From NCBI RefSeq assembly GCF_029626105.1, contig NZ_JARUBH010000009.1, positions 1 to 64,000 on the forward strand: a stretch of DNA of 64,000 nt, read 5' to 3'. Position numbers and translations under genes: made by a program. The notes beneath the pieces are model-generated. The model saw only the letters and a list, made by a program, of their open reading frames with translations. It did no database searches and was not told where the DNA came from. Shown one piece after another: positions 1,276 to 38,222 of this stretch; position 1 is the stretch's first letter, and every line of letters begins with the position of its first letter. The stretch is from Solwaraspora sp. WMMD792 (GTDB lineage: Bacteria; Actinomycetota; Actinomycetes; Mycobacteriales; Micromonosporaceae).

Positions 1276-2586
1276 GTGCCTGACGTGCGAGCAGTGCACT
1301 TCACCGACACGTACCTGCCCCGCCGCGACGGGGTGGTCACCTCGCTGCGGACTCTCGCGGCGGCGTCGGCCGCCGCCGGGCATCCCGGCCTGATCGTGGT
1401 GCCCCGGCACCCGGACCAGCCGACCGAGGCGGACGTGCTGCGGCTACGTGCGCTGCCCTGCGGAGTCGCCGACCTGCGGTTGTCGCCGTGGCTGCTGCGC
1501 GGCGCCGCCGCCACCGGCACCATCGCCGAGATCGCCGCCCACGCCCCGGACGTGGTGCACGTGCACACCCCCGGACCGGTCGGGCTGCTCGGCGTCCTCA
1601 CCGCCCGCCGGCTCGGTCTGCCGCTGGTCCAGACCTACCACACCGACCTGCACGCGTACGCCGACGCGTACCGGGTGCCGGCCCGTGCGCTCAGCGCCGG
1701 CGTCCGGCTGTACGCCCGCCGGCTCGGCGTACCCCGCCCGGCGGCGGCACCGGCCGGCCACGCCCGTGACCACCGGCCGATGGCCAGCGGCGCCGTCGCC
1801 CGCCGCCGGGCCGCCATGGACGCCACCAACACCCTGCTGCTCGGCGGCGCCGACGCGGTGGTGGTGCCGACCCGGGCGGTGCTGGACCGAATCCACCTGC
1901 CGGTGCCCGCCGACCGGGTGCACCTGGTGCCGACCGGGGTCGCGGCCCGCCGCACCACCGCCGACGAGATCAACGCCTTCCGGTACGGCCACGGCATCAC
2001 GCCCAGCGACCGGGTGGTCCTCTACGTGGGTCGGATCAACCGGGAGAAGGGCATCGACCTGCTGATCACCGCGTTCGAGCGGGTGCTGGTCGGCTGCCCG
2101 ACCGCCCGGCTGGTGCTGGTCGGTGCCCTGTACGAGCCGCGCTGGCTGGCCGCGCTGCTGCGCACCATCGACCCTCGGGTGGCTGCCCGGATCACCCTCA
2201 CCGGCCAGCAGGGTCCGGAGGTGGTGGCTGCGGCGTACGGGGCCGCCGAGGTGTTCGCGTTCGCCTCGCAGACCGACACCCAGGCATTGGTCCTGCAGGA
2301 AGCCGGCCTGGCCGGGGTGCCGGTGGTACTTGTCGACCGGGCGTTGCACGCGCACGGCGCGCTTGCCGGCGCCGCACTGCGCACCGAGCCGCAGCCGGGT
2401 GCGCTGGCCGGCGGGGTGCTGCGGCTGCTGCTCGACCCGGACACGGCCCGCCGGCAGGCGGCCGCGGCGGCGGCCCGCTGCGCCGAACACACCCCGGCCC
2501 GCTACGCCGAGGCGATCCGTGAGGTGTATGCGTCGGCCGCCGGGCTGGCGAGTAGGTTCAACGACCGTGGACGTACTCGTCGTTGA
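1276..2586 (+). CDS. GT4-type glycosyltransferase
   Basis: The 436-aa product looks like a GT-B glycosyltransferase of the family 4 / mannosyltransferase type. The N-terminal half has 'HFTDTYLPRRDGVVTSL' and the 'VVHVHTPGPVGLLG' strand. The C-terminal donor domain has 'VVLYVGRINREKGIDLL' and an acidic region around 'TDTQALVLQEAGLAGVPVV'. GTG start at 1276. A proline/arginine-rich insert near residues 150-180 separates the two domains. The stop codon lies inside the 11-bp prophage attachment core, and the last codons overlap the truncated upp start at 2567 by 20 nt. GT and upp were therefore overlapping neighbours before the prophage inserted. Acceptor unknown; actinobacterial relatives act on mannolipids, which is only a suggestion here. 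Confidence 0.85.
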   Translation: MPDVRAVHFTDTYLPRRDGVVTSLRTLAAASAAAGHPGLIVVPRHPDQPTEADVLRLRALPCGVADLRLSPWLLRGAAATGTIAEIAAHAPDVVHVHTPGPVGLLGVLTARRLGLPLVQTYHTDLHAYADAYRVPARALSAGVRLYARRLGVPRPAAAPAGHARDHRPMASGAVARRRAAMDATNTLLLGGADAVVVPTRAVLDRIHLPVPADRVHLVPTGVAARRTTADEINAFRYGHGITPSDRVVLYVGRINREKGIDLLITAFERVLVGCPTARLVLVGALYEPRWLAALLRTIDPRVAARITLTGQQGPEVVAAAYGAAEVFAFASQTDTQALVLQEAGLAGVPVVLVDRALHAHGALAGAALRTEPQPGALAGGVLRLLLDPDTARRQAAAAAARCAEHTPARYAEAIREVYASAAGLASRFNDRGRTRR

Positions 2587-2626
2587 TCAGTCGTCAACCA
2601 TGACTGAGGGGCACCTAACTGGATGA
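2567..2626 (+). pseudogene. upp: 5' remnant of host upp left at the prophage boundary
   Basis: A GTG at 2567 reads VDVLVVD and then changes to QSSTMTEGHLTG followed by a stop. The intact upp at the other prophage end reads VRNVLVVD and continues HPLAQSRL. Joining the left VDVLVVD to HPLAQS gives an unbroken uracil phosphoribosyltransferase N-terminus. This short frame is therefore the original host start of upp, cut off by integration. A TAnnnT element, TAGGTT at 2553-2558, sits 8 nt upstream and may be the native -10. Probably a non-functional 19-codon peptide frame. Confidence 0.85.
2579..2589. other. attL core of the prophage
   Basis: GTCGTTGATCA occurs here and again at 37602-37612, in the same orientation and at the same codon positions of upp. 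Flanking bases then diverge: host upp/GT sequence to the left, prophage sequence to the right. A short identity block of this size is what large serine integrases leave, and a serine integrase gene lies beside the other copy. The GT4 stop codon (2584-2586) is inside the core, so integration preserves it. Confidence 0.85.
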
Positions 2627-2763
2627 TCATCCGGTCGGACAGACGTATGACCCTCGCGTCCTGCTGGCTGGGATCCCGGCCGATCACCCGAGGTCAATGC
2701 CGTAGCGATCCACTTACGGTGAGATCTTCAAACGGGGACTCCACTGCCGGAGGCGCATCACCG

Positions 2764-2952
2764 ATGATGCTCGAACGACTGTCCACACCGATTATCGCCG
2801 CCGCCGCGCTCGCGGCTGGCGTCGCGGCACACGCCGCGATCTCCCGCACCCGCAGCCGCGCCGTGGCACGCGCGTACGCGGATGGGTTCATGGACCGGCA
2901 CCGCCTTGACCGGCACCGCCTTGGCCGGCCCGTCGTCCGATCTGGAGACTGA
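2764..2952 (+). CDS. Small hydrophobic N-terminus protein, unknown
   Basis: This 62-aa frame is not recognised. It starts at ATG 2764 after a GGAGG-type ribosome site. Residues ~8-24 (TPIIAAAALAAGVAAHAA) form one predicted membrane helix or signal anchor, followed by a basic tail with a near repeat, DRHRLDRHRLGRP. It is the first gene inside the left prophage boundary and is convergent with the gene ending at 3041. A hairpin/G-run region follows its stop. Real status is moderate: it has a good RBS and plausible membrane topology but no recognised family. Confidence 0.5.
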   Translation: MMLERLSTPIIAAAALAAGVAAHAAISRTRSRAVARAYADGFMDRHRLDRHRLGRPVVRSGD

Positions 2953-3015
2953 GCCGGGGCGGGGGGCGGGGGTGGGGCTGAACCCCTCATCGAGGACCCC
3001 CCCCCCCCCCGGCTC
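2951..3015. terminator. Bidirectional hairpin with G-quadruplex motif and 14-C run
   Basis: GAGCCGGGG (2951-2959) is exactly complementary to CCCCGGCTC (3007-3015), closing a stem between two convergent genes (stops at 2952 and 3041). The left arm contains four G runs of 4, 6, 5 and 4 at 2956-2977, separated by single bases, a textbook G-quadruplex pattern. The right arm contains an uninterrupted 14-C tract at 2997-3010. There is no T-run, so terminator function is inferred from position and pairing. Confidence 0.55.
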
Positions 3016-3040
3016 AATGTCAACTTTAGATCACTAGCAG

Positions 3041-3379
3041 TTACGTTGGGCCGGTGTGTGCAGGAGCTGCACCACAGTGCCGGGCGAGCGCCGCTGCGGC
3101 GGCCCGACCAGTGGAGAACGGGCCGAGCCGGTCTGACTCGTCCAGCCGTGCGGCTGTCCACCCGCCGAGCAGCCGCCCCGGCTCCGACCACAGGTACCCG
3201 AGCAGCACGCCGTCGCACGCCGCCACCCACCTGGTGGCCCGTTGGTCGACGGGCGCGTACCGCAGCCCTGGATGGGACATCACGGTGTCCAGCGCGGCAG
3301 CCGCCAGCATCTCAGCCTCGGCCTCGTCGACCGCCGTAGCGGCCGCGGTCAGCTTTTCCAACGCCTGGACCCGGTCCAT
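3041..3379 (-). CDS. Unknown 112-aa protein downstream of GntR regulator
   Basis: The start is ATG 3379, 5 nt after the regulator stop at 3385, so the two are probably one transcript. The product begins MDRVQALEKLTAAATAVDEA, has an alanine-rich helical N-terminus, then 'HPGLRYAPVDQRATRWVAACDGVLLGY' and a region rich in W, R and D. No family is recognised. It could be a co-regulated accessory protein of the GntR locus. The frame is open further upstream, but that part overlaps the regulator and its composition is not protein-like. Confidence 0.65.
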   Translation of the reverse strand: MDRVQALEKLTAAATAVDEAEAEMLAAAALDTVMSHPGLRYAPVDQRATRWVAACDGVLLGYLWSEPGRLLGGWTAARLDESDRLGPFSTGRAAAAALARHCGAAPAHTGPT

Positions 3380-3384
3380 GATGG

Positions 3385-4149
3385 TCACCTCTCGCCCCGT
3401 ATCGGCAGATCGTCGTACACGTACGTCACCCGGCGGGCATCCGACACCACCTGCAACGCCTCCAGCGGCCGGCCGGTGACGTCTCGCGTCGTGCGCCACA
3501 GCTCAAGCACCCAGCCCACCGCCGCCAAGCCCAGGTCCGATTGCTCGGCCAACGCAGCAGGCCGCGCCGACAGCTCCTCGCTCGCGGTCGCCGGCCGCAT
3601 GCCGGCAGCGGCCAACGCGGCGTACACGCCGCCGACCACCTTGCCCTGCCCGGCGAGCGCCGTGCCCGCCACCAGGTCACGCGGCATCCACGACTCATGC
3701 AGCTGGACGACACGGCCGTCCATCAAGTGGCGACGGCGGCGCAGCACCATTGAGGCGCCGGCAGGCAGAGCCAGCCGCGCGGCTACGCCGGGTGGTGCAG
3801 GTATGGCCTCCTCGACCGATACGACTTCCACCGACCCGTCGATGCCCTGGTCGGCGCAGGCGGTCTCCCACGGGCCGAGGTTCGCCCGAGTGCGGGCGGG
3901 GTCGGCGACGGCTGCGTACCGCGCCAGCGCCAGCCGCACCGGTGGCGCCGCGACTCGCGTTCCTGCGGCCCGGGCCGACTCGAGTACGCCGGCGGCGCGC
4001 AGTTCGGCCAGTGCCCGACGCACCGTCTCCCGTGACACGCCGTACCGCTCTGCCAGGGCGTGCTCGGTCGGGATCTGGGCGCCGGGCGCGTACTCGCCCG
4101 CCGCGATCGCCTCGCGGAGGTCCGCTGCGATCTCCCGATAGCCCGCCAT
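3385..4149 (-). CDS. GntR/HutC-type transcriptional regulator with UTRA-like domain
   Basis: The 254-aa product starts at MAGYREIAADLREAIAAG, typical of GntR regulators. A winged HTH follows: 'IPTEHALAERYGVSRETVRRAL' and 'AAGVLESARAAGTRVA'. The C-terminal ~170 residues, including 'MVLRRRRHLMDGRVVQLHESWMP' and 'VISDARRVTYVYDDLPI'-like end strands, resemble a UTRA effector domain. An upstream in-frame ATG at 4173 lies inside an operator half-site, so the 4149 start is preferred. The gene is divergent from the small-gene cassette at 4387, with palindromic sites between them, suggesting it controls both sides. Ligand unknown. Regulators of this group also govern actinomycete integrative elements. 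Confidence 0.85.
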   Translation of the reverse strand: MAGYREIAADLREAIAAGEYAPGAQIPTEHALAERYGVSRETVRRALAELRAAGVLESARAAGTRVAAPPVRLALARYAAVADPARTRANLGPWETACADQGIDGSVEVVSVEEAIPAPPGVAARLALPAGASMVLRRRRHLMDGRVVQLHESWMPRDLVAGTALAGQGKVVGGVYAALAAAGMRPATASEELSARPAALAEQSDLGLAAVGWVLELWRTTRDVTGRPLEALQVVSDARRVTYVYDDLPIRGER

Positions 4150-4159
4150 GTGGCCCAGT

Positions 4160-4233
4160 TTAGGCGTACGCAAAGCCTTGACGTCGCGTCGTTACTGCGG
4201 TCACACTCAGTCCAACGCTTTGCGTACGCAAAG
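4160..4233. promoter_or_regulatory. Paired operators for the GntR regulator
   Basis: Positions 4218-4233 are a perfect 16-bp palindrome, CTTTGCGTACGCAAAG. Positions 4160-4175 carry a second copy with one intact half, GCGTACGCAAAG, and three changes in the other half. They lie 43 bp apart in the gap between the regulator start (4149) and the cassette (4387), the usual place for autoregulation and control of the divergent operon. Binding by the neighbouring GntR protein is inferred. Confidence 0.7.
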
Positions 4234-4260: not shown

Positions 4261-4386
4261 GGCCCGGTCCTGATCGGCATCCAGCGCGCGGATCCGCGGG
4301 GCCGGGCCACCCCGGATCGGCGGCGGTCCGGCCGGGTTCCCCCGTGCTCGCCGGGCCGCCGCCCCGCTGACTCGAGGAGCGCGAAG
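4261..4386 (+). promoter_or_regulatory. Conserved leader upstream of cassette A
   Basis: This stretch is repeated with high similarity at 53770-53903, also directly upstream of the paralogous cassette. Identity continues through insertions and deletions that break reading frame, so it is not conserved as protein. Both copies contain GGCGGCGG pairing with a downstream CCGCCGCC, enclosing a C-rich loop, and end in the same GAGGAGCGCGAAG ribosome site before ATG. It may be a structured 5' UTR or promoter segment. Confidence 0.5.
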
Positions 4387-4560
4387 ATGATCGGGAAGTG
4401 GTTCCTCCGCGACGCAGGCGTGGTCGACGTCGTCCGTCCGGTGCCCGGCCGCCGCCGGTGGGTCGACCAGCCCGCCCGGCCGACCGACACCCGGCCTGCG
4501 ACCCGCACCGACCGTGCCGACCAGCGCGGCGGCAACGGCGGCCGCACCATCCTGCCGTGA
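4387..4560 (+). CDS. Cassette gene 1 (copy A), 57-aa conserved small protein
   Basis: The product starts MIGKWFLRDAGVVDVVRPVP and ends with a basic, glycine-rich tail (RADQRGGNGGR). A paralog of the same length is at 53904-54077; by eye about 44 of 57 residues match, and conservation is strongest in MIGKWFLR, VVDVVRPVPGRRR and RPATRTDRAD. GAGGAG ribosome site 8 nt before ATG. Its stop overlaps the GTG of gene 2 (GTGA). No domain family recognised. Length conservation between two separated loci argues strongly that it is a real gene. Confidence 0.8.
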   Translation: MIGKWFLRDAGVVDVVRPVPGRRRWVDQPARPTDTRPATRTDRADQRGGNGGRTILP

Positions 4561-4838
4561 CCGGCACGTCCAGACCGGCCGCCCCGGCCGTCGAGCCGGC
4601 ACACACCCCGCACCGGCCGACGTGGGACTGCGTCGTGTGCCCGGACGGTACGCCCTGGCCGTGTTCGCCGGCCCGCGTCCAGCTGGCGGAGGCGTACGCC
4701 AGCGAACCGCTCGCGCTGTCGGTCGACATCGGCGAGATGCTGACCGTCGCGGCTCGCGAGGCGGGTATCACCGACCCTGCCGAGCTGCACGAGCGGTTCG
4801 TGGCGTGGACCTGGATCGACGGGAGTCCAACGCGGTGA
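4557..4838 (+). CDS. Cassette gene 2 (copy A), cysteine-motif small protein
   Basis: The 93-aa product starts at GTG 4557, overlapping the previous stop by 4 nt. A C-x2-C plus a third cysteine (CVVCPDGTPWPC, residues ~26-37) could bind a metal. The following 'ARVQLAEAYASEPLALSVD' and 'AGITDPAELHERFVAWTWID' are nearly identical in the paralog at 54074-54337. The N-terminal ~15 residues differ in length between the copies. Function unknown. Tight coupling to genes 1 and 3 suggests a stoichiometric small complex or a co-regulated stress module. Confidence 0.8.
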   Translation: MTGTSRPAAPAVEPAHTPHRPTWDCVVCPDGTPWPCSPARVQLAEAYASEPLALSVDIGEMLTVAAREAGITDPAELHERFVAWTWIDGSPTR

Positions 4839-5026
4839 CCGCGATGGACGACGGGCCGATCACCGATCAGGACATCGACGACGCGGCGGCCGGCGCCGTG
4901 CACGCACACGCCGCCGGCCACCGCTGTCACACCGACTGCCCCGGCACCGAGGACTGCCCGCAGCTGGTGTGGGCCCGTACCCGCCGGGCCATCGCCAAGT
5001 ACCGCCTGGTGCGGCGATCCATATGA
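4835..5026 (+). CDS. Cassette gene 3 (copy A), 63-aa cysteine-containing protein
   Basis: GTG 4835 overlaps the gene 2 stop by 4 nt; an internal ATG at 4844 is the alternative start. The sequence MDDGPITDQDIDDAAAGAV precedes a cysteine cluster, RCHTDCPGTEDC, and a basic helix, ARTRRAIAKY. The paralog at 54334-54531 keeps all three cysteines and the helix. No family recognised. In this copy the operon continues into two more genes; in the other copy it ends here. Confidence 0.75.
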   Translation: MTAMDDGPITDQDIDDAAAGAVHAHAAGHRCHTDCPGTEDCPQLVWARTRRAIAKYRLVRRSI

Positions 5027-25438: not shown

Positions 25439-25508
25439 CACGCCGCACTTCCCGATCGTGGGCAGACTCCTGGCGCTGCACCAATGATGAGATTGGAACG
25501 CGATCTTG

Positions 25509-27764: not shown

Positions 27765-27818
27765 TACCGCCCCCCGTAGATGATCATCAACGTCTATGGA
27801 TTCCTGTGGATGCGATGC

Positions 27819-27849
27819 GGCCCGGCCCGCCGTTTCGGCAGGCCGGGCC
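27819..27849 (-). terminator. Terminator after the first early operon segment
   Basis: GGCCCGGCC (27819-27827) pairs with GGCCGGGCC (27841-27849). Inside, GCC/GGC adds three more pairs around a GTTTC loop, with one mismatch between the two stem parts. It lies 34 nt beyond the stop of the gene ending at 27883 and before the HNH gene, so it may separate two transcription units on the minus strand. Confidence 0.6.
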
Positions 27850-27882
27850 ACGGAGAACAGCAGCTGGGCAAGGGCGATGGAC

Positions 27883-28203: not shown

Positions 28204-28512
28204 TCAGCCCACTCCCGTCTCGATGTCGTCCAGTCGCACCGGCTGCGCGCCGGCGCAGGCCTCGCACAGCGAGCCCGGCTCGCCGACGTGCGGCCGGTAG
28301 CAGCCCGCGCAGGACACCAGTTCGTCCAGCACCGGCGGCCGGGCCGGCCGAGGCCCGGCGGTCGCCTGCGGTGGGTCCGGGACCGGTTCGCCGGCGAGCG
28401 CCCGCCGCACCAGCGCGGCACCACGGTGGGCACGCTCGGCGGCCTCGGCCGGTGTCCGGGCCCGCCGGGCGGCCAAGTCCTGCTGCACACGCCGGAGGTC
28501 GCGGTTACGCAC
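28204..28512 (-). CDS. Zinc-ribbon early protein
   Basis: The 102-aa product has a basic helical N-terminus (RDLRRVQQDLAARRARTP) and a two-CxxC ribbon near the C-terminus, 'CAGCYRPHVGEPGSLCEACAG'. It probably binds zinc. It overlaps the previous gene by 8 nt. Function unknown. Confidence 0.6.
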   Translation of the reverse strand: MRNRDLRRVQQDLAARRARTPAEAAERAHRGAALVRRALAGEPVPDPPQATAGPRPARPPVLDELVSCAGCYRPHVGEPGSLCEACAGAQPVRLDDIETGVG

Positions 28513-28732
28513 CGCCGCCTCCGGTCAGGTGGTAGCGGCCGTGCCAGGAGTACCGGCCCTTGCTGATGAGCTGCGGATCGACCGGTGCTGGCTTGCCAGC
28601 CTTGGTGGTCGGCACGACGAGGAGGCCGATCAGCCCTAGGTGGTCGCGGACCCTGATGAGGTGGTCCCACGTGCTGTGCACCCAGACCTCAGTCCCCAGC
28701 TCCTGTCGCGCGGGCTTGGTCGGGTCACCCAT
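28505..28732 (-). CDS. Small early protein, unknown
   Basis: The 75-aa product has 'ELGTEVWVHSTWDHLIRVRDHL' then 'LLVVPTTKAGKPAPVDPQ' and 'GRYSWHGRYHLT'. Beta-rich, no recognised family. It overlaps both neighbouring genes by 8 nt, consistent with coupled translation. Confidence 0.55.
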   Translation of the reverse strand: MGDPTKPARQELGTEVWVHSTWDHLIRVRDHLGLIGLLVVPTTKAGKPAPVDPQLISKGRYSWHGRYHLTGGGGA

Positions 28733-29120
28733 CGGTCACCTGCGTCAGCAGGATCTGCGCGACCCGGGCAGCGCGGTCACACGCCGTCGCCCAGCGCCAC
28801 GCGTGGCCGGTGACGGTGTGCTCGTCGCCGGACGGAGTGATCACCGTGGCGTGCCACCGCCAGCGCCGGCCGAGCCAACCCGCGCGCTCGACGCCCGTCG
28901 ACGCCACGGCGGCCGCCGGCGACGCTGGCGCCGGTTCGGCGACGGCCGGCCGGGCCACCGGCTTGACGGGGGCGGGCCGGACCGGTGCCGGCGTCCGGAG
29001 GGCGGGCCGCCGGGCCTGGCCGAGTGACCTGCGGACGTCGTCCGGGTAGACGGCCTGACCCGGCCGGGCAGCCATCGCGGCCCGGTACGCCGTCTCGAAC
29101 TCGTCATCCTCAATCGGCAT
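28725..29120 (-). CDS. Early protein with linker and compact C-terminal domain
   Basis: The 131-aa product starts at ATG 29120 (MPIEDDEFETAYRAAMAARP). A Pro/Ala-rich linker leads to a C-terminal ~50-residue part: 'GRRWRWHATVITPSGDEHTV', 'AWRWATACDRAARVAQILL'. The last part resembles a small beta-hairpin plus helix. Longer in-frame sequence upstream overlaps another gene and is rejected. Function unknown. Confidence 0.6.
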   Translation of the reverse strand: MPIEDDEFETAYRAAMAARPGQAVYPDDVRRSLGQARRPALRTPAPVRPAPVKPVARPAVAEPAPASPAAAVASTGVERAGWLGRRWRWHATVITPSGDEHTVTGHAWRWATACDRAARVAQILLTQVTDG

Positions 29121-29343
29121 CTCGTTCTCCCAAGATCGCGGCGTCCCGAGCCGCCGCAGCGGCGGCGAGGACCGGGGACACCGGGGTGGTTGGCAGGGTG
29201 ATCGGGTGGTGCGCGTCGCCCGGCTCGCCGAGCAGCCCGCACACGACACAGACCCGGCGGCCACGGTGGTCCGCCGGCAGATCTCGTGTGGCCTGGTGGA
29301 GGTGCGGCGGTACCCGCGACCGGGCCGGGGTGCGGCGGGTCAC
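29110..29343 (-). CDS. Small zinc-finger early protein
   Basis: The 77-aa product starts at GTG 29343, overlapping the previous stop (GTGA). The core 'RVCVVCGLLGEPGDAHH' has a C-x2-C and paired histidines that could hold zinc. An alanine-rich helix follows (SPVLAAAAAARDAAILG). No family recognised. Confidence 0.55.
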   Translation of the reverse strand: MTRRTPARSRVPPHLHQATRDLPADHRGRRVCVVCGLLGEPGDAHHPITLPTTPVSPVLAAAAAARDAAILGERDAD

Positions 29344-29606
29344 CGGGATGCCTCCTCGATGACGCCGGCCGGGTCGACGAGCGTTGGTCCGTCGTGGCCG
29401 GCGTCGCGGCCGCCACGCACCCGCACCGGGTCGGGGAGCACCGAGGCGGCCGCCGCCTGTTCCTGGCGGCGGGCCTCGGCCCGCCGGCGCCGCCAGCACA
29501 GCGATCCGACCCGACGCGCCCGCGCTTTGGGGTCGGTGAGCGGCGTCGCGCAGTCCAGGCACAGCACCGGAGGCAGGTCCGGCCGGGCCGGCGGGCGCGC
29601 GGTCAC
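29340..29606 (-). CDS. Zinc-finger early protein, DUF6011-like
   Basis: The 88-aa product has 'VLCLDCATPLTDPKARARRV' followed by GSLCW, a C-x2-C...S-x-x-C pattern like the small zinc proteins common in actinobacterial and phage genomes. It ends in an acidic tail. GTGA/ATGA overlaps join it to both neighbours. Confidence 0.6.
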   Translation of the reverse strand: MTARPPARPDLPPVLCLDCATPLTDPKARARRVGSLCWRRRRAEARRQEQAAAASVLPDPVRVRGGRDAGHDGPTLVDPAGVIEEASR

Positions 29607-30094
29607 GCCAGTCCCTGGGCTCTGAGCCGCAGCATCCGGTCCGCCTCGGCCGTCAGCAGGGCGGCGGCACGCACGAGGTCGGCGACGCGGTCACCGTGCT
29701 CCGGATAGCCATCGACGTACGGCCAGTCGAGCCAGGTCGACTCCGGATCGGCCCACCAGCACGCCATCTGCCACAGCTGGCCGGACGTGCGCTGGTCATC
29801 GTGGACGGCGTCGTACCGCTTGCGTTCGATCTGCCGGAGCCGTTCCTCCGCGACGCGCAGCAGGGCCGGCGACTGGCAGGACCGGGGCGCGGCCTCCGGC
29901 ACCATCCGGGCCCGCAGCACATCGCGGACCCGACCAGCGGCGGCGACCGCCCGCGACCAGCGGCTCTCACCCGCTGCTGCGGCGTCCGCCGACTCGATCG
30001 CGGCCGCCAGGTCGACCAGCAACTCCGGTGACTCGAGCGCCGTCCGGGTCTCCGGCGGCACCCGCCACAGCGCCGGCTGGGTCTGCCCGGTCAC
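29603..30094 (-). CDS. Early protein, unknown
   Basis: The 163-aa product starts at GTG 30094 overlapping the previous stop. The second half, 'LRVAEERLRQIERKRYDAVHD', 'GQLWQMACWWADPESTWLDWP' and 'DRVADLVRAAALLTAEADRML', resembles a family of phage proteins with an R-Q-I-x-x-E-x-Y/W-D-x-x-H-D pattern (often annotated only as hypothetical, some near nucleotide metabolism). Catalytic role unknown. Confidence 0.6.
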   Translation of the reverse strand: MTGQTQPALWRVPPETRTALESPELLVDLAAAIESADAAAAGESRWSRAVAAAGRVRDVLRARMVPEAAPRSCQSPALLRVAEERLRQIERKRYDAVHDDQRTSGQLWQMACWWADPESTWLDWPYVDGYPEHGDRVADLVRAAALLTAEADRMLRLRAQGLA

Positions 30095-31008
30095 TGGCTG
30101 ACTCCCCGAACCGGTGAGGCGGCCATCCGGCGCAGCGTGTCGACGATCCAGTCGACTTCCTCCACCGGGCCGCCCGGCGGCCGCGACTGGTCGACCACGC
30201 CGGCCGACCCGATGTGTCCGCACCACTGGCTGTACTGGTGGCTCATCGCCCGCAGACGCGGCAGGTAGATCAGCCGCGTCCCCGGCCGGGGTGGCTGGAC
30301 TCCGGCGTCCCGCAGGTCCCAGTCCAGGGCGGAGACCTCCCACTCCGACCAGGCCACGACCCGCCGACCGGTCACCCAGGCCGCCACGCCCGGCGCGGCG
30401 GCCTCGACGAGCCGGCCGCCGGCCGGCAGGTCCCGCTTGCGTTTCGGCCGCCGGTCCGGGATCAACGTGATGTGCAGCCGGTCCACCGCCGGATCGGCGA
30501 GCGACACGACGACGAGTTCGGCGACGGCGGTCCGCTTCACCGTCTGCCCCGGCCCGGCGGGGGCCAGGTCGATCGACCGGGTCGCCACCACCATGGCGGT
30601 CGGGTCAGCGAGTGCCTCGGCGGCCCAGGCGGAGGCCTCGGACCGCTGCTGGGCGCGCCAGGCGCGGACTTGGTCGTAGCGGTCCTCGGCGTCGCAGGCC
30701 GGGCACCGGTGCGCGCCACGGCCGTTCGACGGCAGCGGCCCGCCGGCGTCCCACCCGCACACCTCGCAGTGCCGGGGGTAGACGCGGCTGGCCTCGGCCG
30801 CCGCCCGCTGCCGGGCGGTCAGCGGCCGCATCGCCACGGTGTCGGCGACCGTGAACAGGTGCGTGGTGTCCTTGCCGCGGCTGTAGCGGAGGATGCCGGC
30901 CGGGGCCTGGTCGGGTGCGGGCTTGCGGCGCATCCGGCGCAGCATCGTCACCGTGGCCAGGCCGTCCGGGATCTCCCGCACGCCGTACACCGGCAGGTTG
31001 GCCGTCAT
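30091..31008 (-). CDS. DnaQ-like exonuclease-fold protein, probably inactive
   Basis: The 305-aa product starts at ATG 31008. A zinc knuckle sits at ~95-125: 'HCEVCGWDAGG' and 'HRCPACDAEDRYDQVRAW'. The following segment 'AAEALADPTAMVVATRSIDL' aligns in spacing with the first motif of RNase T/DnaQ 3'-5' exonucleases (normally V-x-D-x-E-T-T). Here the catalytic D and E are replaced by A and R. Later 'GRRVVAWSEWEVSALDWDL' corresponds to the second motif, normally N-x-x-F-D. So the fold may be kept without catalysis. This is a pattern judgement, not an alignment result. Confidence 0.55.
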   Translation of the reverse strand: MTANLPVYGVREIPDGLATVTMLRRMRRKPAPDQAPAGILRYSRGKDTTHLFTVADTVAMRPLTARQRAAAEASRVYPRHCEVCGWDAGGPLPSNGRGAHRCPACDAEDRYDQVRAWRAQQRSEASAWAAEALADPTAMVVATRSIDLAPAGPGQTVKRTAVAELVVVSLADPAVDRLHITLIPDRRPKRKRDLPAGGRLVEAAAPGVAAWVTGRRVVAWSEWEVSALDWDLRDAGVQPPRPGTRLIYLPRLRAMSHQYSQWCGHIGSAGVVDQSRPPGGPVEEVDWIVDTLRRMAASPVRGVSQ

Positions 31009-31319
31009 CGGCTCACCTCTGTCTGTGTCTGGGGTGATGGCCAGCAGTGCGGGCACCAGGCCGCGCGGTAGCGCTCGGCGACCACGGCGGCCGCGAGCAC
31101 CTGGCCCTGCTCCCGCTCGGCGGAGCTGACGAACCGGCCGCACACCGTCCGGCGCTGCTTGTCGTCGGTCGTCGGCCGGATCTTGTGGGCGGTGACACCG
31201 GCACGGGCGACCGCGATCCACACCTGTGCGCGTGCGCCGGCCGCGCCGGCGAGCTCCGCCGGTGGGGCCGGGGCCCGGGTGGCCGCACGGCGCGGCCACC
31301 CGGGCGTACCGGCGGTCAC
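31005..31319 (-). CDS. Early protein with C-terminal CPHC, unknown
   Basis: The 104-aa product starts at GTG 31319 (GTGA overlap) and ends in an ATGA overlap with the next gene. Central 'GARAQVWIAVARAGVTAHKI' and 'REQGQVLAAAVVAERYRAAW' precede 'CPHCWP', a possible redox or metal motif. Family not recognised. Confidence 0.5.
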   Translation of the reverse strand: MTAGTPGWPRRAATRAPAPPAELAGAAGARAQVWIAVARAGVTAHKIRPTTDDKQRRTVCGRFVSSAEREQGQVLAAAVVAERYRAAWCPHCWPSPQTQTEVSR

Positions 31320-31735
31320 CACGACCCGCCCCGGGCCGTCGACCTGGCCACGTGCTGCGCGAACCACGGATTGACGCCTGCTGTGGCTGGGTTCGCGGCG
31401 GCCCACTGGCCGGTGCCGTCGTCCGGCGGCTCCGCCCGGCGCCGGCCCGTGTCCACGACGGGCACCGGAGCCGAGCGGTACACCCCGCCAGCGGGCGCCG
31501 TACGTCCGGTCACGGGCTCCGGCCAGCGTTCGCCGTCGACCGGCTCCGGCCACGGCAGGGCTGAGGCGGGCAGGTCCTGCGTCAGCTCGACGCGCAGCGC
31601 CGACAACTCCCCGGTGTGCATGTCCCAGCCCTCGTGCCGGTCCTCGGCGGCGGCGGTGCTGAGGAGGCCCCGGCGCACGGCGGCCGCGAGCGCGGCGACC
31701 ACCAGGCAGGCTGCCGCGACGATCAGCAGAATCAT
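31316..31735 (-). CDS. Single-pass membrane protein, early operon
   Basis: The 139-aa product starts MILLIVAAACLVVAALAAAV, one membrane helix, followed by an acidic then Pro/Arg-rich soluble part ending QHVARSTARGGSW. First of three consecutive membrane proteins (with those at 31732 and 32169). Function unknown; superinfection exclusion or membrane anchoring of early functions is possible. Confidence 0.6.
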   Translation of the reverse strand: MILLIVAAACLVVAALAAAVRRGLLSTAAAEDRHEGWDMHTGELSALRVELTQDLPASALPWPEPVDGERWPEPVTGRTAPAGGVYRSAPVPVVDTGRRRAEPPDDGTGQWAAANPATAGVNPWFAQHVARSTARGGSW

Positions 31736-32172
31736 TGCTGCTGTCCTCTCTGCTCGGTCTGGTCGTGGGCGGTGGTGCTGGGGCGGGCGAGGTCCAGGGC
31801 GTCGCGGACGTCGCGGGTCAGGCCCGCCACGCGGGCGGCACGGGCCCAGGGGTCGCCCCGGCCCGCACCGGCCACGGTGACCGCGATCAGCGCCACCACC
31901 GCGCCGATCACCGCGCTGACCGGTACCGACACCGCCACGGTGATCGCGACGACCGCCCAGGTCGACAGGTCGTGATGGCGCGGCCGGACGGCGAGGGCGG
32001 CGGTCACGGACGCCCAGTGCTCGTTCAGGCGGCGGGTCCGCCGGCGGCGCACCACCACGGCGGCCCGGAGCGCGCCCGCGAACAGCAGCAGCGCGGCCGC
32101 CAGCCACAGCGGGTGGATCGGCGCCGTCCACCATCCGGACCCGGCCCAGAAATGCGAGGCGAACACCTTCAT
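31732..32172 (-). CDS. Two- or three-helix membrane protein, early operon
   Basis: The 146-aa product has membrane helices at ~20-40 (HPLWLAAALLLFAGALRAAV) and ~72-104 (TWAVVAITVAVSVPVSAVIG, AVVALIAVTVAG), joined by a basic loop (RRRRTRRLNEHW). Acidic/polar C-terminus. Unrecognised. ATGA overlaps on both sides. Confidence 0.6.
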   Translation of the reverse strand: MKVFASHFWAGSGWWTAPIHPLWLAAALLLFAGALRAAVVVRRRRTRRLNEHWASVTAALAVRPRHHDLSTWAVVAITVAVSVPVSAVIGAVVALIAVTVAGAGRGDPWARAARVAGLTRDVRDALDLARPSTTAHDQTEQRGQQQ

Positions 32173-32420
32173 CGGCGCGCACCTCCCGCCGGCTGGTGCT
32201 CGTCGAGCAGCGCGGCCAGGCGGTCGTGCCACGCCCGGTCGGCAGCGGCCCGCCGCGCCTGCCGGGCCGCCACCCGGGCCGCCCGATCAGCCCGCCGGGC
32301 GGCGGCCGCACGGCGTGCCCGACCGGCCAGCACCCGCACCGCGTGCCCGCCAGCGACGATCAGCGCCATGATCAGCAGCCCGCCGGCCTCGGGCAGCGCG
32401 GCTGCGATCCCCGTGGTCAC
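32169..32420 (-). CDS. Small membrane protein with basic tail
   Basis: The 83-aa product has one membrane helix (GLLIMALIVAGGHAVRVLAG) then a strongly basic Ala/Arg helix (residues ~32-65) and HDRLAALLDEHQPAGGARR. Part of the three-gene membrane set. Function unknown. Confidence 0.55.
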   Translation of the reverse strand: MTTGIAAALPEAGGLLIMALIVAGGHAVRVLAGRARRAAAARRADRAARVAARQARRAAADRAWHDRLAALLDEHQPAGGARR

Positions 32421-33112
32421 CGGCGATCACCGCCCAGGGCGGTCCGGATCGCGCCGAGCACCAGGCCGGCCGTGTCCGGGGTCTCCCACATGCCCCACAG
32501 GGCTTGGCGGAGGCAGGCCGGGAGCAGTCCGCGGCTGCCCAGGCTGCAGGCCAGGGACAGAAGGTGGTGCTGGGCGTCGGTGATGTCGTCGCCCAGGGCG
32601 TCATCCAGTGCGGCCAGGTGCAGGGCGTTCCATCCGACGACGCCGGGTGAGGTGATGCGTCGGGTCACGGCCGGGTGGTCGAGCAGGCCGGCGCCGGCCA
32701 GCAGTTCGACGGCGGCGGCCTCGCACGGGTCGGTTGCCTCGGCCAGCAGCGCGGCGGTGACGTCGGCCGGCTGGCCCGGTGCCGGGGTGGCCGGGGGGCG
32801 TGGCGGGTCCTGCGCCAGCGGTGCCGGGCCGGCGGCCCGGCCGGCGGCGTGCGCCCGCGCCAGGAGGCCGATCACGACCTGCACGGTCGCGGTCTCCCAG
32901 CTGGCCAGCCAGGCGAGCACCCGGTGGTCCAGGTCGCCCAGCTCGACGCCGGCGTCGACGGCGGCGGCGATCAGGGCTGCCCGGCGCGTGCCCTCGGCCG
33001 TGCCGTCACCGGGCCGGATGCGGCCGGTGGTGTGCAGTTCGGCCAGTTGCCGGGGCAGTGGCGCGGCCAACGCCTCGTCCTCGCTGTTGTACGGTCCGAT
33101 CTTGGCGGTCAC
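32417..33112 (-). CDS. Early helical protein, unknown
   Basis: The 231-aa product starts MTAKIGPYNSEDEALAAPLP. Helical segments 'VELGDLDHRVLAWLASWETA', 'TVQVVIGLLARAHAAG' and 'GWNALHLAALDDALGDDITD', then 'HLLSLACSLGSRGLLPACLRQ'. The 'LDHRVLAWLASWETATVQVV' element is frequent in actinobacterial prophages, where function is unassigned. ATGA overlaps at both ends. Confidence 0.6.
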   Translation of the reverse strand: MTAKIGPYNSEDEALAAPLPRQLAELHTTGRIRPGDGTAEGTRRAALIAAAVDAGVELGDLDHRVLAWLASWETATVQVVIGLLARAHAAGRAAGPAPLAQDPPRPPATPAPGQPADVTAALLAEATDPCEAAAVELLAGAGLLDHPAVTRRITSPGVVGWNALHLAALDDALGDDITDAQHHLLSLACSLGSRGLLPACLRQALWGMWETPDTAGLVLGAIRTALGGDRR

Positions 33113-34617
33113 AGGTCACCCCCGGTCGGCTGTGCCGGCACCACCACGGCGGCGGTTCCCCGCGCAGGCGGGGCCGGCTGGTCGGCGGGGTCGGCGTCGT
33201 TGTAGACGTACATCTCGATCGACAGCGGCGCGGACGACCCGCCGAGGTCATCGGCCGGACCGCCGCCGGTCAGCAGCTCGGCGACCAGGCGCTCACCGAC
33301 CGGGACCACGTCGGAGCCGAGCTCGGCGGCGAACGCCTGCAGACCGGCGAGGTTGGCGGCGCGGCCGGTCACCTGCAGCCGGTCGACCGGCAGGATCGAC
33401 GGGTCCCGCTCGGCGGCCGCGACCAGGGCGCGCAGCCCGTCCAGCATCAGCTGACGGCGGGTCCGCACACGCAGCGCCTCGGCAGCGGCGGCCACCGTCT
33501 CCTCGTCGACCAGCGGCACCAGGTCGTCGGCGTGGTGCTCGGCGTACTCCGGGCCGGCCAGGAGCACCCCGACCAGTCCGGCGGCGCCAACCTCGACGGC
33601 GCGGACCTCGACACCGGGCACGTCGTCCCGGCCGGTCGCCACCCACATCCCCGGCCGCAGCTCGGTGGCACGCACCGACGGAATCGCGTCGTCTGGGGCC
33701 CGGCCGGCGTCGACGGCGGTGACGTTCGCAGCTGCGAGCACCGCCAGGCGCGGCCACGCGCCGGCCGGCACGTCGGCCAGGTCAACTCCCTCGGCGGAGA
33801 TCTCGCCGCACCGCACCCGCTCCGGAGCGCCGACCAGCCCGGTGTCCAGCCCGCCGGTCCGGGCCTGTTCCGTCACCACGTCCTCGTGCCCGGCGCAAAC
33901 CCAGATGGTGCCCGCGTACGTCCGTGGGCCGGTCCAGCGCAGCGGGTGTGGCTGCGTCGCCACACCGGCCACCGCCGGCCGGCCGCACCGCTGGACGACG
34001 TCGACGGCGACGTCAGCGGCCGGGGACACCGGCACGTCCTCCGGCGAGTCGGCGGTGGTGGCGCCGGCGATGTGCTCGTCCAGCAGCGCCAGCGCCGGAG
34101 CCATGCTGTCGAATCCGTCCACGGCCAGCCCGCAGAGGCACCTGGCGCCGCAGCCGGCCGGGCCGGACCAGCCGCCCGCCACCCCGTGCCCGCCGGCGTC
34201 ACCGGCCGGGTCGGGGTCGGGGGTCGGGTCGACCGGTGCGGTCTCCGGACCGGGGCCGGTGCCCGCCGCCGCCCGCTGCAGCGCCTGGTGCTCCGGTCCG
34301 CCGTCGGGGGTGAGCACCGAGTCGGCGGCGACCCGCCAGATCTCGCCGCACACCGCCGCCGTCGGGATGATCGGCGCGAACACATCGACCACGAGGCCGG
34401 CGGCGCGCAGGCCGGCGGTGGCCTGGTCGACGTGCGCATCGCACGTCGAGACGGTGCCGGCGTACGCCCCGGTCCGGATCACACCCGGGCGGATCGGGGT
34501 CGGCTGGCCGGAGTCGTCGTTGGTGGTGGCCACCACGGTGTTGACGGCCGGCTGGCCGCAGATGTCGGACCTGGTCGGTACGGTGTCCGGTTGGTTTTCG
34601 GTACTCTCGTGTTCCAC
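33109..34617 (-). CDS. Large early protein with duplicated Cys/His module
   Basis: The 502-aa product starts at GTG 34617 (MEHESTENQ). Two modules resemble each other. The first, ~20-95, has 'ICGQPAVNTVVATTNDDSG', 'AYAGTVSTCDAHVDQATAGL' and 'AVCGEIW'. The second, ~210-280, has 'RCGRPAVAGVATQ', 'RTYAGTIWVCAGHEDVVTEQ' and 'RVRCGEIS'. Each has C-G-x-P-A-V, Y-A-G-T-x-x-x-C-x-x-H and C-G-E-I, suggesting a repeated zinc-binding fold. The remainder (~300-500) is Ala/Val-rich. Function unknown. Confidence 0.6.
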   Translation of the reverse strand: MEHESTENQPDTVPTRSDICGQPAVNTVVATTNDDSGQPTPIRPGVIRTGAYAGTVSTCDAHVDQATAGLRAAGLVVDVFAPIIPTAAVCGEIWRVAADSVLTPDGGPEHQALQRAAAGTGPGPETAPVDPTPDPDPAGDAGGHGVAGGWSGPAGCGARCLCGLAVDGFDSMAPALALLDEHIAGATTADSPEDVPVSPAADVAVDVVQRCGRPAVAGVATQPHPLRWTGPRTYAGTIWVCAGHEDVVTEQARTGGLDTGLVGAPERVRCGEISAEGVDLADVPAGAWPRLAVLAAANVTAVDAGRAPDDAIPSVRATELRPGMWVATGRDDVPGVEVRAVEVGAAGLVGVLLAGPEYAEHHADDLVPLVDEETVAAAAEALRVRTRRQLMLDGLRALVAAAERDPSILPVDRLQVTGRAANLAGLQAFAAELGSDVVPVGERLVAELLTGGGPADDLGGSSAPLSIEMYVYNDADPADQPAPPARGTAAVVVPAQPTGGDL

Positions 34618-35153
34618 GTCGACCTCTCACGTCGATGGTTGGGATGGGTGGCCCTTGCCGATGTCGCGGCGAGGGCCGCTGCCGTTTGTGGATGGGGTGC
34701 GTGCGCCGGCCCTCCCCGGCACGGCGCACGCACCCGACGACGCCCGGACCGCCGTGGGGAAGACCGGCGGACCGGGGCGGTGGCGGCGAACAGCACCAGG
34801 GCGCCGGCGGCGGCCAGGGCGGCCGGGTCGACCAGCCCGCGCGTCAGCAGCTCGGCGCCGCCGACCGCGACCAGGCCGACCAGCGCGCCCAGCACGAGGG
34901 CCACGCCGAGCAGCAGGCGCAGCGCACGAAGTGCTCCCCGGCCGGCCGGTCGTAGCGACCGCTGGAGTCGGCCCGTGGGGACCACTCCAGGTCCCGGCCG
35001 GCCGGGGAAGACCGGGGTTACCCGGCCGGCGGCGGCGCCCTCCCAAGCAGCCGCCGCCGGCCGAGCTGGACCAGCCACCAGGAGGGCCGGTCCATCCACC
35101 AGGGCGGAACGTGAGACAGCGCCCCTGGTGGCCGTCTTGTGGATGGTGATCAT
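34479..35153 (-). CDS. Early protein with two membrane segments, boundaries uncertain
   Basis: The 224-aa frame includes two clear hydrophobic helices (LRLLLGVALVLGALVGLVAV and DPAALAAAGALVLFAAT), so at least the central part is coding. The C-terminal ~100 residues are Arg/Pro/Thr-rich and overlap the following gene by 139 nt, far more than any other overlap in this operon. The true stop may be earlier through a sequence error or frameshift. ATG 35153 overlaps the previous stop. Confidence 0.45.
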   Translation of the reverse strand: MITIHKTATRGAVSRSALVDGPALLVAGPARPAAAAWEGAAAGRVTPVFPGRPGPGVVPTGRLQRSLRPAGRGALRALRLLLGVALVLGALVGLVAVGGAELLTRGLVDPAALAAAGALVLFAATAPVRRSSPRRSGRRRVRAPCRGGPAHAPHPQTAAALAATSARATHPNHRRERSTWNTRVPKTNRTPYRPGPTSAASRPSTPWWPPPTTTPASRPRSARV

Positions 35154-35341
35154 GCCGCGCCCCTGCCCCGCCAGCCCGAGGCGGCCGGCGAACCGAGGAC
35201 GCGGGTCGCGGGCCGAGCCAGCGGCCGGGACTCACCGAGGACGGGCGGCAGCAGCAGCCGGATCTGGGCGAGCTGATCGGCGGTCGGCTGCGGCGCACTG
35301 GCGACGGCGGCCGACACGAACTGGCGCAGGTCGACGGTCAT
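35150..35341 (-). CDS. 63-aa early protein, unknown
   Basis: The product reads MTVDLRQFVSAAVASAPQPT then 'ADQLAQIRLLLPPVLGESRP'. The 'LRQFVSAAVASAPQPTADQL' segment is common in small actinobacterial prophage proteins beside the regulator. ATG overlaps the XRE stop, so it is translated with it. Confidence 0.55.
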   Translation of the reverse strand: MTVDLRQFVSAAVASAPQPTADQLAQIRLLLPPVLGESRPLARPATRVLGSPAASGWRGRGAA

Positions 35342-35586
35342 GACCGGGCCGGCGGCATCAGGTCGCTGGCGGGCACGCCGAGGGCTTCCGCGAGCGCGAC
35401 GAGGGTGCGCGGGCCGGCGTTGCGGGTGTTGTTCTCCAGCTCGGCCAGGTGGCTCGGCGAGATGCCGGCAGCCTTGGCAAGAGCAGGGCGGGACAGCCCG
35501 GACGCGACCCGGTGCCGCCGGAGGGCCTCCGGGCTGTGGTCGCGGGGCAGGCGACCCCGTGAGCGTGTCGGGTGCGTAGCTGTCAT
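35338..35586 (-). CDS. XRE-family regulator, first gene of the lytic operon (Cro-like position)
   Basis: The 82-aa product has a full XRE HTH: 'ALRRHRVASGLSRPALAKAA', 'GISPSHLAELENNTRNAG' and 'TLVALAEALGVPASDLMP'. It is divergent from a second XRE gene (35730) across an operator-rich gap and heads the leftward early operon, the position of a Cro-type regulator. Its promoter lies among the CTACGC repeats. Confidence 0.8.
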   Translation of the reverse strand: MTATHPTRSRGRLPRDHSPEALRRHRVASGLSRPALAKAAGISPSHLAELENNTRNAGPRTLVALAEALGVPASDLMPPARS

Positions 35587-35714
35587 GCGTAGGACGCTAC
35601 GCCGCTACGCAGCACTACGCAAGGCTACGCACGATAAACGCGCAGCGTGGCGTAGCGCCTATCTGACAGTGACCATTCATACACGAGCACGATTGCGTAA
35701 GATTGCGCAATCGT
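35587..35714. promoter_or_regulatory. Prophage switch region with repeated operators
   Basis: CTACGC occurs at 35597, 35605, 35615 and 35625 (steps of 8, 10, 10 bp). The inverse GCGTAG is at 35587-35592, forming GCGTAG-gacg-CTACGC, and again at 35650-35655. Nearer the rightward gene, ACGATTGCG (35689-35697) is an inverted repeat with CGCAATCGT (35706-35714), and GATTGCGCAATC (35701-35712) is a perfect palindrome. Two different operator types, each next to one regulator, suggest a bistable switch. Confidence 0.7.
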
Positions 35715-35729
35715 GCGTACGATGCCGGC

Positions 35730-36158
35730 ATGACCAACCGGCTCACCGAGTTCGGCCATCACGTCGAACTGGCGCGCGGCCAAATGGGCCTATCCGGCCG
35801 CAAAGCCGCCGCACGGGCAGGCATCAGTGAAGGACGCTGGAGACAGATCGTCACCGGCCACGGCGGCAAAGACTTACCACCCGCCAAGACGGCGGCCGCC
35901 ATGCTCGCCGCCGTCGACCTCGACCCCGCCACCGACCTACCCCGCTGGTACGGAGCCGACGACGTCAGCCGCGCGCTCCGGCTCCTCGCCGCCGACCACC
36001 CCGATACAGCAGCCGACACCAGCCTCCGCGACCGGGTCGCCCGCATCCGAGCCCTCGACATCGACCCGCAGACGCGAATGGAACTCCTCGACGCGCTACT
36101 CGACGCGCACGAACAGCTCCACGGCGATCAGGACGGCAAGCCGGCCTCACGCCAGTAG
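35730..36158 (+). CDS. XRE-type regulator, candidate lysogeny repressor
   Basis: The 142-aa product has 'HVELARGQMGLSGRKAAARA' and 'GISEGRWRQIVTGHGGKDL', an HTH, followed by 'PAKTAAAMLAAVDLDPATDL' and an effector/dimer region '[19 protein letters not shown]'. The start at ATG 35730 fits the HTH; an earlier in-frame start lies in the operator. It is the only lytic-control gene on the plus strand and converges with the integrase, overlapping its end by 31 nt. That placement suits an immunity repressor. Confidence 0.75.
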   Translation: MTNRLTEFGHHVELARGQMGLSGRKAAARAGISEGRWRQIVTGHGGKDLPPAKTAAAMLAAVDLDPATDLPRWYGADDVSRALRLLAADHPDTAADTSLRDRVARIRALDIDPQTRMELLDALLDAHEQLHGDQDGKPASRQ

Positions 36159-37570
36159 TCGCCCCACGTCCGACCATCTACGTCGCCGACCCACCTCGAC
36201 GGACCCAGCCGCCACGGATCGAACCGACGCGCACCACCACGCCGCCCCGCAGCGAACCGCACATCCGCAACCGTCCGGATCACCACCCGCTGCGGCGGTA
36301 TCCCCGCCGCAGCCCACCGGGCAGCCACATCCTCACCTGGTGCCAGCAGGTCACGCAGCTCCGGCGGCAGACCCGCCGCCAGGGTCCGAGACTCCGCCGC
36401 GCGGATCCGGTCAGTCAGGCCGGCCTCGATCACTGCCAAGCTCTCCGGCGACGTCCGGCCGGCGATCGCCGACCGCCGCCACCCGTCCAGCTCGCCCCGC
36501 AGCCGAGCGGCCTCCGCCTCCGCCTCGATCACCTCGGCATCACTGATCGCCGTCGCCGACCGTAGCCGCTCGTGCACGTCCGGCCGGGCCAACCAACCCA
36601 GCACCACCGCCTCCACGAACGCGTCCGTGGCGGGCTGGACGATGGTCGCCCCGCAGCCCTCGCACCGGTAGCGGCCGCGCGCAACGCACGGAGGACCCTC
36701 GCACTGGTCGCAGCGCATCAGGTAGGACAGCAGGTGCCGCCACCGGCCCGGCCGTGACGTGCGCCGGGTCGGGTCGGACAGGATCCGCTGTGCAGCCCAC
36801 CACGACGTTTCACTCACGATCGGCGGCCAAGCCGCCGCTGTGGTGCTGCCGTGGTGCCGGCGGAGTCCGACGTACGCCGGGTTGCTCGCGATGTCCCGCA
36901 CCCGCACCCGATGCCACCGGCCGCCGCCCGGGGCCGCGATCGCCGCAGCGTTGAGCCGATCGGCGATCGTGGAGATTGGGGTGCCGGCGGCGACCTGGTC
37001 GACGATGTCGGCGACGATCGGGGCGGTGTCCGGGTCTGCGACCTGCCCGGCGAGCCTGCCCGTGTCGGGGTCGTAGACGCGCCGGTATCCGTACTGCGTT
37101 CGGCCCGGAGTCGGCCGGCCGGCGGCGGCCGCGCCGGCTTGGCCACGGCGTGCCCGCAGCGATGTCTTGTCCGACTCGTAGGCGGAGTCGATGCCGTCCT
37201 CGGCGAGGGTGCGCCAGTCGCGGGGGTTTTCGAGCCGGTAGGTCCGCTCGTGGGTGACGACATGGATGCGTACCCCGGACTCACGGCACGAGCTGAGGAA
37301 CGCGAACCACGTCTCCGGCGTACGGTCGCCGCGTGAGCTCTCCCAGAGAATGAGGACGTCGATCCGCCGAGCGGCGATGTCGTCGAGGACCTTCGGCCAT
37401 CCGTCGCGGGCCTTCCGAGCGAACCGGCTGGCACTCGCGCCGTCGGAGTATTCAGCGACGATGGTCCAGCCTTCGTCGGCGGCCGCCGTCCGGATCTCTT
37501 CGGTCTGCTCGGTGATGCTCTTGTGCTTCGCGGCAGACTGGCGGGCGTAGCTACCTGCGCGGGTGGGCAT
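36128..37570 (-). CDS. int: Large serine integrase
   Basis: The 480-aa product is a serine recombinase that integrates and excises the prophage. The catalytic domain starts '[19 protein letters not shown]' with the nucleophile Ser12 in Y-A-R-x-S; it continues '[17 protein letters not shown]' and '[16 protein letters not shown]'. A recombinase domain follows ([14 protein letters not shown] ... 'YVGLRRHHG'), then a zinc ribbon '[19 protein letters not shown]' with 'EGC', a coiled coil (~340-395) and a C-terminal tail. ATG 37570 is 16 nt from the upp start. A TAATCT element 6 nt before ATG indicates a leaderless transcript. Confidence 0.93.
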
Positions 37571-37586
37571 CTGGTTAGATTACCGG
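37571..37586. promoter_or_regulatory. Overlapping divergent leaderless promoters for int and upp
   Basis: The 16-bp gap contains TAGATTA. On the plus strand TAGATT (37576-37581) is a TAnnnT -10 with 5 nt before the upp GTG. On the minus strand the same bases read TAATCT, with 6 nt before the integrase ATG. Such spacing matches leaderless actinobacterial transcripts. Both -10 elements share six base pairs, so polymerase can serve only one gene at a time. Confidence 0.65.
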
Positions 37587-38222
37587 GTGCGTAACGTTCT
37601 AGTCGTTGATCACCCTCTCGCCCAGTCCCGGCTGACCGCGATGCGCGACGCCCGGACCGACTCGGCGGCGTTCCGCGCCGCGCTGCACGAACTCACCACC
37701 ATGTTGGTGTACGAGGCGGCCCGATCCTTCCCGGTGGAGTCCTTCCCGGTGACCACCCCGGTGGCGCCGACCGACGGGACCCGGCTGGCCAACCCGCCGC
37801 TGCTGGTGCCGGTGCTGCGCGCCGGGCTCGGGATGGCCGACTCGGCGTTGGCGCTGCTGCCGGAGTCGTCGATGGGCTTCGTCGGGCTGGCCCGCGACGA
37901 GGAGACCTACGAGCCCCGGGCCTACCTGGAGTCGCTGCCGGTCGACCTGGCCGGCATCCCGGTGCTGGTGCTCGACCCGATGCTGGCCACCGGCGGCTCG
38001 CTGGAGCACTGCTGCCGGCTGCTCGCCGACCGGGGCGCCACCGAGATCACCGTGCTGTGCGTGCTCGCCGCGCCGGCCGGAATCGACCGGCTGGACCGCT
38101 CCGGCCTGCCGTTGCGACTGGTGACCGCGTCGATCGACGAACGGCTCAACGAGAAGATGTTCATCGTGCCGGGGCTCGGTGACGCCGGTGACCGCCAGTT
38201 CGGCGGGATGCCGCGCTTCTGA
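37587..38222 (+). CDS. upp: Uracil phosphoribosyltransferase, 5' end replaced by prophage
   Basis: The 211-aa enzyme makes UMP from uracil and PRPP (pyrimidine salvage). Signatures: '[18 protein letters not shown]', '[19 protein letters not shown]', '[16 protein letters not shown]', and the PRPP loop '[17 protein letters not shown]'. The first codons (VRNVLVVD) come from the prophage; host sequence begins within the att core, and the native start survives at 2567. The protein differs from the pre-integration form only in its first residues. The promoter is now prophage DNA next to int. Confidence 0.95.
37602..37612. other. attR core of the prophage
   Basis: Second copy of GTCGTTGATCA, coding for residues V-V-D of Upp. 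Prophage sequence lies to the left (integrase side), host upp to the right. Together with 2579-2589 it allows reconstruction of attB as the native upp start and of attP as the junction of 37571-37601 with 2590 onward. Confidence 0.85.

Follow-up and report, generated by a model that had tools for sequence, protein, structure and literature searches.

A prophage with a large serine integrase in the 5' end of upp in Solwaraspora sp. WMMD792, and candidate mis-excision products in the same assembly

Introduction

A prophage that lies in the first codons of a host gene raises the question of whether that gene is lost, kept in use, or turned on and off by the element. This question is posed by upp, a nucleotide-salvage gene used for counter-selection, in Solwaraspora sp. 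WMMD792, and a second one arises from the genome assembly, in which several contigs join prophage DNA to host DNA away from the attachment sites. The window, i.e., the whole stretch of 64,000 nucleotides that was analysed, supplies the coordinates used throughout.

The prophage and its integration cores

The interval in question is delimited by two copies of a short repeat and is described by the following features:

1276-2586, forward strand: GT4 glycosyltransferase (Pfam), which overlaps the upp start in relatives
2579-2589, forward strand: left core (attL), an exact repeat containing the GT4 stop codon; the attL junction is observed
22772-24541, reverse strand: terminase large subunit (PHROG match)
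24525-25100, reverse strand: terminase small subunit (TerS) candidate, likely start at 25004; the top PHROG is named minor tail protein and the second is terminase small subunit
25061-25441, reverse strand: HNH endonuclease
35338-35586, reverse strand: helix-turn-helix (HTH) regulator of the Cro/CI-like type, with which the leftward block begins
35586-35720: repeat-rich region between two regulators, with a putative operator/promoter role
35703-36158, forward strand: divergent ORF with a weak HTH match just under the Pfam cut-off and none in PHROGs
36128-37570, reverse strand: large serine integrase whose start codon is 31 bp away from the core (PHROG 95, E 9.4e-64; Pfam Resolvase and Recombinase)
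37602-37612, forward strand: right core (attR), an exact repeat within upp

The 11-mer GTCGTTGATCA has two exact forward-strand copies in the 64 kb, at 2579-2589 and 37602-37612, as the earlier note had it, and no others (shuffled sequence gives a mean of 0.01 copies, and 0 of 100 shuffles contain two). The GT4 stop codon, TGA at 2584-2586, is located in the left copy, again as described there. Between the cores are encoded an integrase, a terminase large subunit (TerL), portal, protease, scaffold, major head, tail terminator, tape measure and amidase proteins and the TerS candidate, which aligns with BritBrat gp1, annotated as a terminase small subunit. The element is thus a complete-looking HK97-like prophage of the siphovirus type. 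Its integrase carries both the Resolvase (PF00239) and the Recombinase (PF07508) domain above the Pfam cut-offs, as large serine integrases do, and the short core, the attB arrangement in relatives and the attP junction in an excised-form contig likewise agree with that class. A dyad search for the crossover dinucleotide found no clear centre common to attP and attB.

Nine ORFs of the 25.8-35.2 kb block, including 34479-35153, have no Pfam match at the limits used, and the label "leftward lytic block" therefore follows from position; ORF 26607-27971 is HNH-like in PHROGs. Near the left end of the prophage lies a GntR/UTRA-type regulator (3385-4173). Prophage DNA at 4290-5006 resembles host DNA at 53810-54505 over a stretch of 731 columns (81% identity), both containing a small frame that begins MIGKWFLR, and the host copy lies near an HTH gene (52341-53609).

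Empty sites in relatives and the excised form

All 61 genomes searched for the upp locus (60 relatives and the strain itself, E <= 0.001) gave a match, which was short and near 1e-6 in three (G011, G045 and G058) and at 1e-29 or better in the other 58; 30 loci were fetched, 29 of them from relatives. The earlier note had proposed looking for prophage-free relatives in which GT4 overlaps an uninterrupted upp start, and this arrangement is present in six of six same-genus loci (L002-L007), where the start of upp has one 13-residue reading in five and VDVLVVEHPLAQS in L007. Locus L002 is identical to the joined flanks of the prophage over 169 bp (67 bp to the left and 102 bp to the right of the core start), and over longer spans the identity is 97.5% (1300 bp) and 97.6% (621 bp). 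As the observation that would count against it, the same note had named a VRN-type upp start in prophage-free relatives; none of the 29 relative loci examined has such a start, and the proposal is therefore not refuted.

The assembly consists of ten contigs, with C9 representing the chromosome. Seven (C2-C8) are non-colinear with it and C10 is colinear. Contig C5 runs from 25176 to 37612 and continues from 2579 onward, with only the 11-bp core in common, and is thus the attP junction whose detection had been suggested, here found at the level of the assembly. It implies a circle of 35,023 bp, although a tandem prophage could also be its source. An attB junction was not observed in the strain's own genome, where only one of the upp matches listed is strong, the one at attR. 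Separately, contig C1 (L039, L049) matches C9 2508918-2539904 with a net loss of 5.3 kb located within C1 13501-20000, and the assembly therefore contains a second structural variant; C1 5507-6568 recurs with 100% identity at C9 4658017-4659078.

The start of upp in the two states

The native and the prophage-supplied starts are laid out as follows:

2553-2569, forward strand: TAGGTT box of native upp with its orphaned GTG start (all 29 relative loci have a TANNNT box)
37576-37589, forward strand: prophage TAGATT box, 5-nt spacer and new upp GTG; putative promoter
37582-37577, reverse strand: TAATCT, the opposite strand of the attR box, 6 nt before the int ATG
37587-38222, forward strand: upp, intact to the right of the second core, with prophage-encoded first codons and a new in-frame start (Pfam UPRTase, E 2.7e-62)

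An orphaned upp start at 2567 and, beyond the second core, a functional-looking upp whose first codons are prophage DNA had been reported, and both are borne out by the GTG codons at 2567-2569 and 37587-37589. The rebuilt N-terminus reads MRN-VLVVD, compared with MD-VLVVD in the native form. The target frame is kept and receives a new in-frame start, as in the 5'-end gene-restoring elements of the SXT/dusA kind. Taken together, the cores, junctions and empty sites support the claim that the prophage is a site-specific insertion in the 5' end of upp, replacing the upstream region and the N-terminus of the gene.

Leaderless transcripts are a common form in actinobacteria. A TANNNT motif stands 6-8 nt before the upp GTG in all 29 relative loci (range tested, 5-9 nt) versus 6 of 1740 control upstream windows, a regularity that fits a leaderless transcript, and native upp looks leaderless on these grounds. 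At attR the spacer between TAGATT and GTG is 5 nt, one base shorter than in any of the 29 relatives, and neither 35100-38000 nor 1000-3200 yielded a promoter in generic sigma-70 scans. The TAGATT and TAATCT motifs overlap on opposite strands, and int and upp may share this single divergent box. At attL, the native upp box now reads into an orphan frame of 19 codons, and the stop of this frame overlaps the ATG of a phage ORF of 109 codons (2567-2952); in the lysogen, expression of a phage gene from the host upp promoter may be the result.

As a TANNNT box stands close to an in-frame GTG in both states, preservation of upp function appears to be the simplest reading. It has to be weighed against the reversible switch that the earlier note had suggested, in which integration and excision would alter upp expression to the use of host or phage. 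Such a switch would draw on the attP junction in the assembly, on the unlike DNA upstream of upp in the integrated and excised states and on the precedent of SpyCI, which acts in this way on mutL (PMC3430984). The box and in-frame start found in both states speak against it, as does the failure to see attB in the strain's own genome, and a switch is distinctly improbable. The element is more plausibly one that preserves upp.

Integrase relatives and target choice

The integrase was matched in 53 of 354 family genomes, the strain's own included, with relatives at most 54% identical. Conservation of the upp site across this integrase group is unsupported: tblastn for upp and GT4 in 32 integrase loci (L056-L087, including the strain's own C5 copy; flanks of at most 1.5 kb for 30 of them) returned nothing, and 13 loci inspected by eye, among which L056 and L059 are the same place, have other neighbouring genes. 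As far as tested, then, the upp target is particular to this phage. At the DNA level, the right end of the prophage is whole in the strain's own genome alone (C9 and C5) among the 354 genomes, and five others have it in part at 67-72% identity. A related integrase occurs in 140 phage records, with 29.9-34.0% identity among the 30 matches listed. In L056, L061, L063, L066 and L069, too, the int ATG follows closely on a TANNNT box (by eye, without a control), and transcripts of int that lack a leader may be widespread among these integrases.

Contig starts and the position of cos

One further feature is placed by comparison:

25070-25180: expected cos

Five of the seven non-colinear contigs (C2, C3, C4, C5 and C7) have their first base within 25081-25176, while those of C8 and C6 are at 20433 and 27224; four of the six aberrant contigs described below thus share this start, with cos itself placed by comparison only. 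In the records of TPA4 and BritBrat, which have related terminases, the first gene is preceded by 74 and 81 bp, respectively, and such records presumably start at cos. If TerS starts at GTG 25004, as a motif that it has in common with BritBrat suggests, their first bases would map to 25078 (TPA4, from a weak alignment) and 25085 (BritBrat). Given the agreement between these positions and the contig starts, the common start most likely marks where linear phage DNA is cut at cos.

Contigs with aberrant junctions

Six of the non-colinear contigs have junctions of another kind, which are numbered in window positions, with 0 and negative values lying to the left of the window and taken from the C9 end:

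177-1142, reverse strand: deoC (Pfam), head of the leftward host operon left of attL
34730-35287: zone of the six aberrant right breakpoints (junction mapping)
C2: 35234 joined to -1827, exact overlap of 2 bp
C3: 35287 joined to 154, exact overlap of 3 bp
C4: 34730 joined to -301, exact overlap of 4 bp
C6: 35136 joined to -786, exact overlap of 1 bp
C7: 35098 joined to -122, no exact overlap, five unmatched bases
C8: 35163 joined to -239, exact overlap of 1 bp

The six junctions are distinct and each connects prophage DNA at 34.7-35.3 kb to host DNA left of attL. Homologous recombination is rejected as their origin, the exact overlaps being 1-4 bp, with none in C7; the average overlap at random junctions is 0.9 bp. 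In all six the same prophage end is deleted, comprising both regulator ORFs, the region between them, int and attR. The host breakpoints fall in the leftward operon, where deoC comes first and is followed by two frames that look by eye like aldehyde dehydrogenases; five lie in the first frame and one in the second. Rightward lateral transduction through upp was also rejected, as none of C2-C8 enters the DNA right of attR.

C2, C3, C4, C6, C7 and C8 all carry a host flank at a non-att junction and have lost the opposite phage end, which is the configuration of specialised-transducing phage. We infer that the aberrant contigs represent specialised-transducing phage genomes that arose by illegitimate mis-excision and were cut at cos.

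Proposed mechanism and alternative explanations

The explanation as a whole, which is considered probable, combines a serine-integrase insertion in the upp start that keeps upp working with mis-excised transducing genomes cut at cos. In this account the large serine integrase of a temperate cos-type siphovirus recombined the phage attP, just upstream of the int start, with the beginning of the upp coding sequence. Because upp would be leaderless, all that the phage would have to bring in for a working gene is TAGATT as the -10 box, followed by GTG and several codons, so that upp stays on, and the overlapping box on the opposite strand would serve int. Precise excision by the integrase would give C5. 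Circles retaining cos and the leftward gene block would instead arise by illegitimate recombination of the 34.7-35.3 kb zone with the side of the deoC operon; this block, with the HTH gene at 35338-35586 as its first gene, would lose the repeat-rich region and be set behind the co-directional host operon. Such circles would escape repression in cis, and their subsequent amplification would account for the detection of six lines next to a single attP contig. The 5-nt attR spacer, the lack of a sigma-70 promoter, the lack of an attB contig, the unmatched bases in C7 and the two of seven contigs that do not start at cos all count against the explanation.

A more far-reaching version is that the prophage repeatedly yields derivatives that escape lysogenic control by promoter capture: mis-excision would remove the operator region, the regulators and int and bring the deoC operon to lie in front of the leftward block, so that the molecule ignores the resident repressor, is amplified and carries deoC-operon DNA, with several such lines present together in one culture. 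This is put forward tentatively and is somewhat doubtful; promoter capture by phage mis-excision was not found among the papers listed in literature searches. A serious competitor, judged a little short of an even chance, is that repression is intact and the aberrant circles are packaged by intact helper phage in induced cells, with the breakpoints reflecting size limits and the cis region needed. If closed, the six circles would measure 35,028-37,060 bp, at or slightly above the wild-type 35,023 bp and never under it, which suits this account, but helper packaging leaves unexplained both the loss of the regulator region in six of six and the occurrence of six lines versus one attP contig.

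The aberrant contigs might also be tandem duplications in the chromosome rather than excised phage genomes, since a tandem duplication would give identical junctions and no contig closes on itself; independent linear phage molecules better account for the six unlike junctions at a single locus and for the five of seven contigs that start at cos, and duplication is considered unlikely. Assembly or library chimeras are very improbable: the small contigs have the length of reads (15-32 kb) and may each be backed by a small number of them, and errors occur near the C7 junction, but random chimeras would not pair one 560-bp zone with one 2-kb zone six times, and simulated right ends clustered as tightly in 0.12% of draws, a figure that is illustrative only, the range having been chosen after the data were seen. 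Mis-excised genomes cut at cos stay the preferred reading of the six contigs.

Relation to known systems

Two components of this picture are known: the replacement of a gene start (SXT/prfC and the dusA islands) and specialised transduction by a mis-excised prophage, which is classical and is exemplified by lambda gal/bio. What is distinct here is the upp target, the use of a serine integrase at an apparently leaderless gene, the divergent box that int and upp may share and the occurrence of several putative mis-excision products side by side in a single assembly. Among the papers listed in a literature search, none dealt with an att site of a phage in upp, as judged by titles and the openings of abstracts.

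For a dusA island, insertion in the 5' end is established to supply a new promoter and N-terminus, and expression measured in the dusA-targeting islands such as IMEVchUSA3 was lower after insertion (PMC8409611). The present prophage likewise sits in the 5' end of a host gene; unlike those islands, it is an actinophage with a serine integrase, its target is upp with a leaderless start, and its promoter effect is predicted from sequence. SXT in prfC also gives its 5'-end target a new promoter and N-terminus (stated in PMC8409611; also PMC4344509), and here too a replacement start is given, with a predicted promoter, whereas SXT is an ICE of Gammaproteobacteria with another target gene. SpyCI is a phage-like element in the 5' end of mutL whose excision restores the native arrangement; intact SpyCI blocks mutL, while this prophage keeps the upp frame, and one strain expresses mutL from a promoter inside an int pseudogene (PMC3430984). 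As in ICEKp1, the DNA upstream of int differs between the integrated and excised states, but in contrast to int promoter switching in ICEKp1, the putative int -10 box here accompanies int in both (PMC13023037). The aberrant contigs resemble phi11 specialised transduction, in which host DNA of one flank is fused to phage DNA by non-homologous recombination (PMC8826898), and differ in that six independent junctions occur in the assembly of one isolate, on one side, all without the regulator and int region.

Implications

The prophage extends the strategy of replacing a gene start to an apparently leaderless actinobacterial gene, in which about 26 bp of phage DNA, from TAGATT to the core, could provide upp with a new promoter, a start codon and an N-terminus. 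Should the aberrant molecules prove real, several independent specialised-transducing genomes of one prophage have been caught in an ordinary genome assembly, so that the rate of mis-excision and the selection acting on its products would be measurable directly from long reads.
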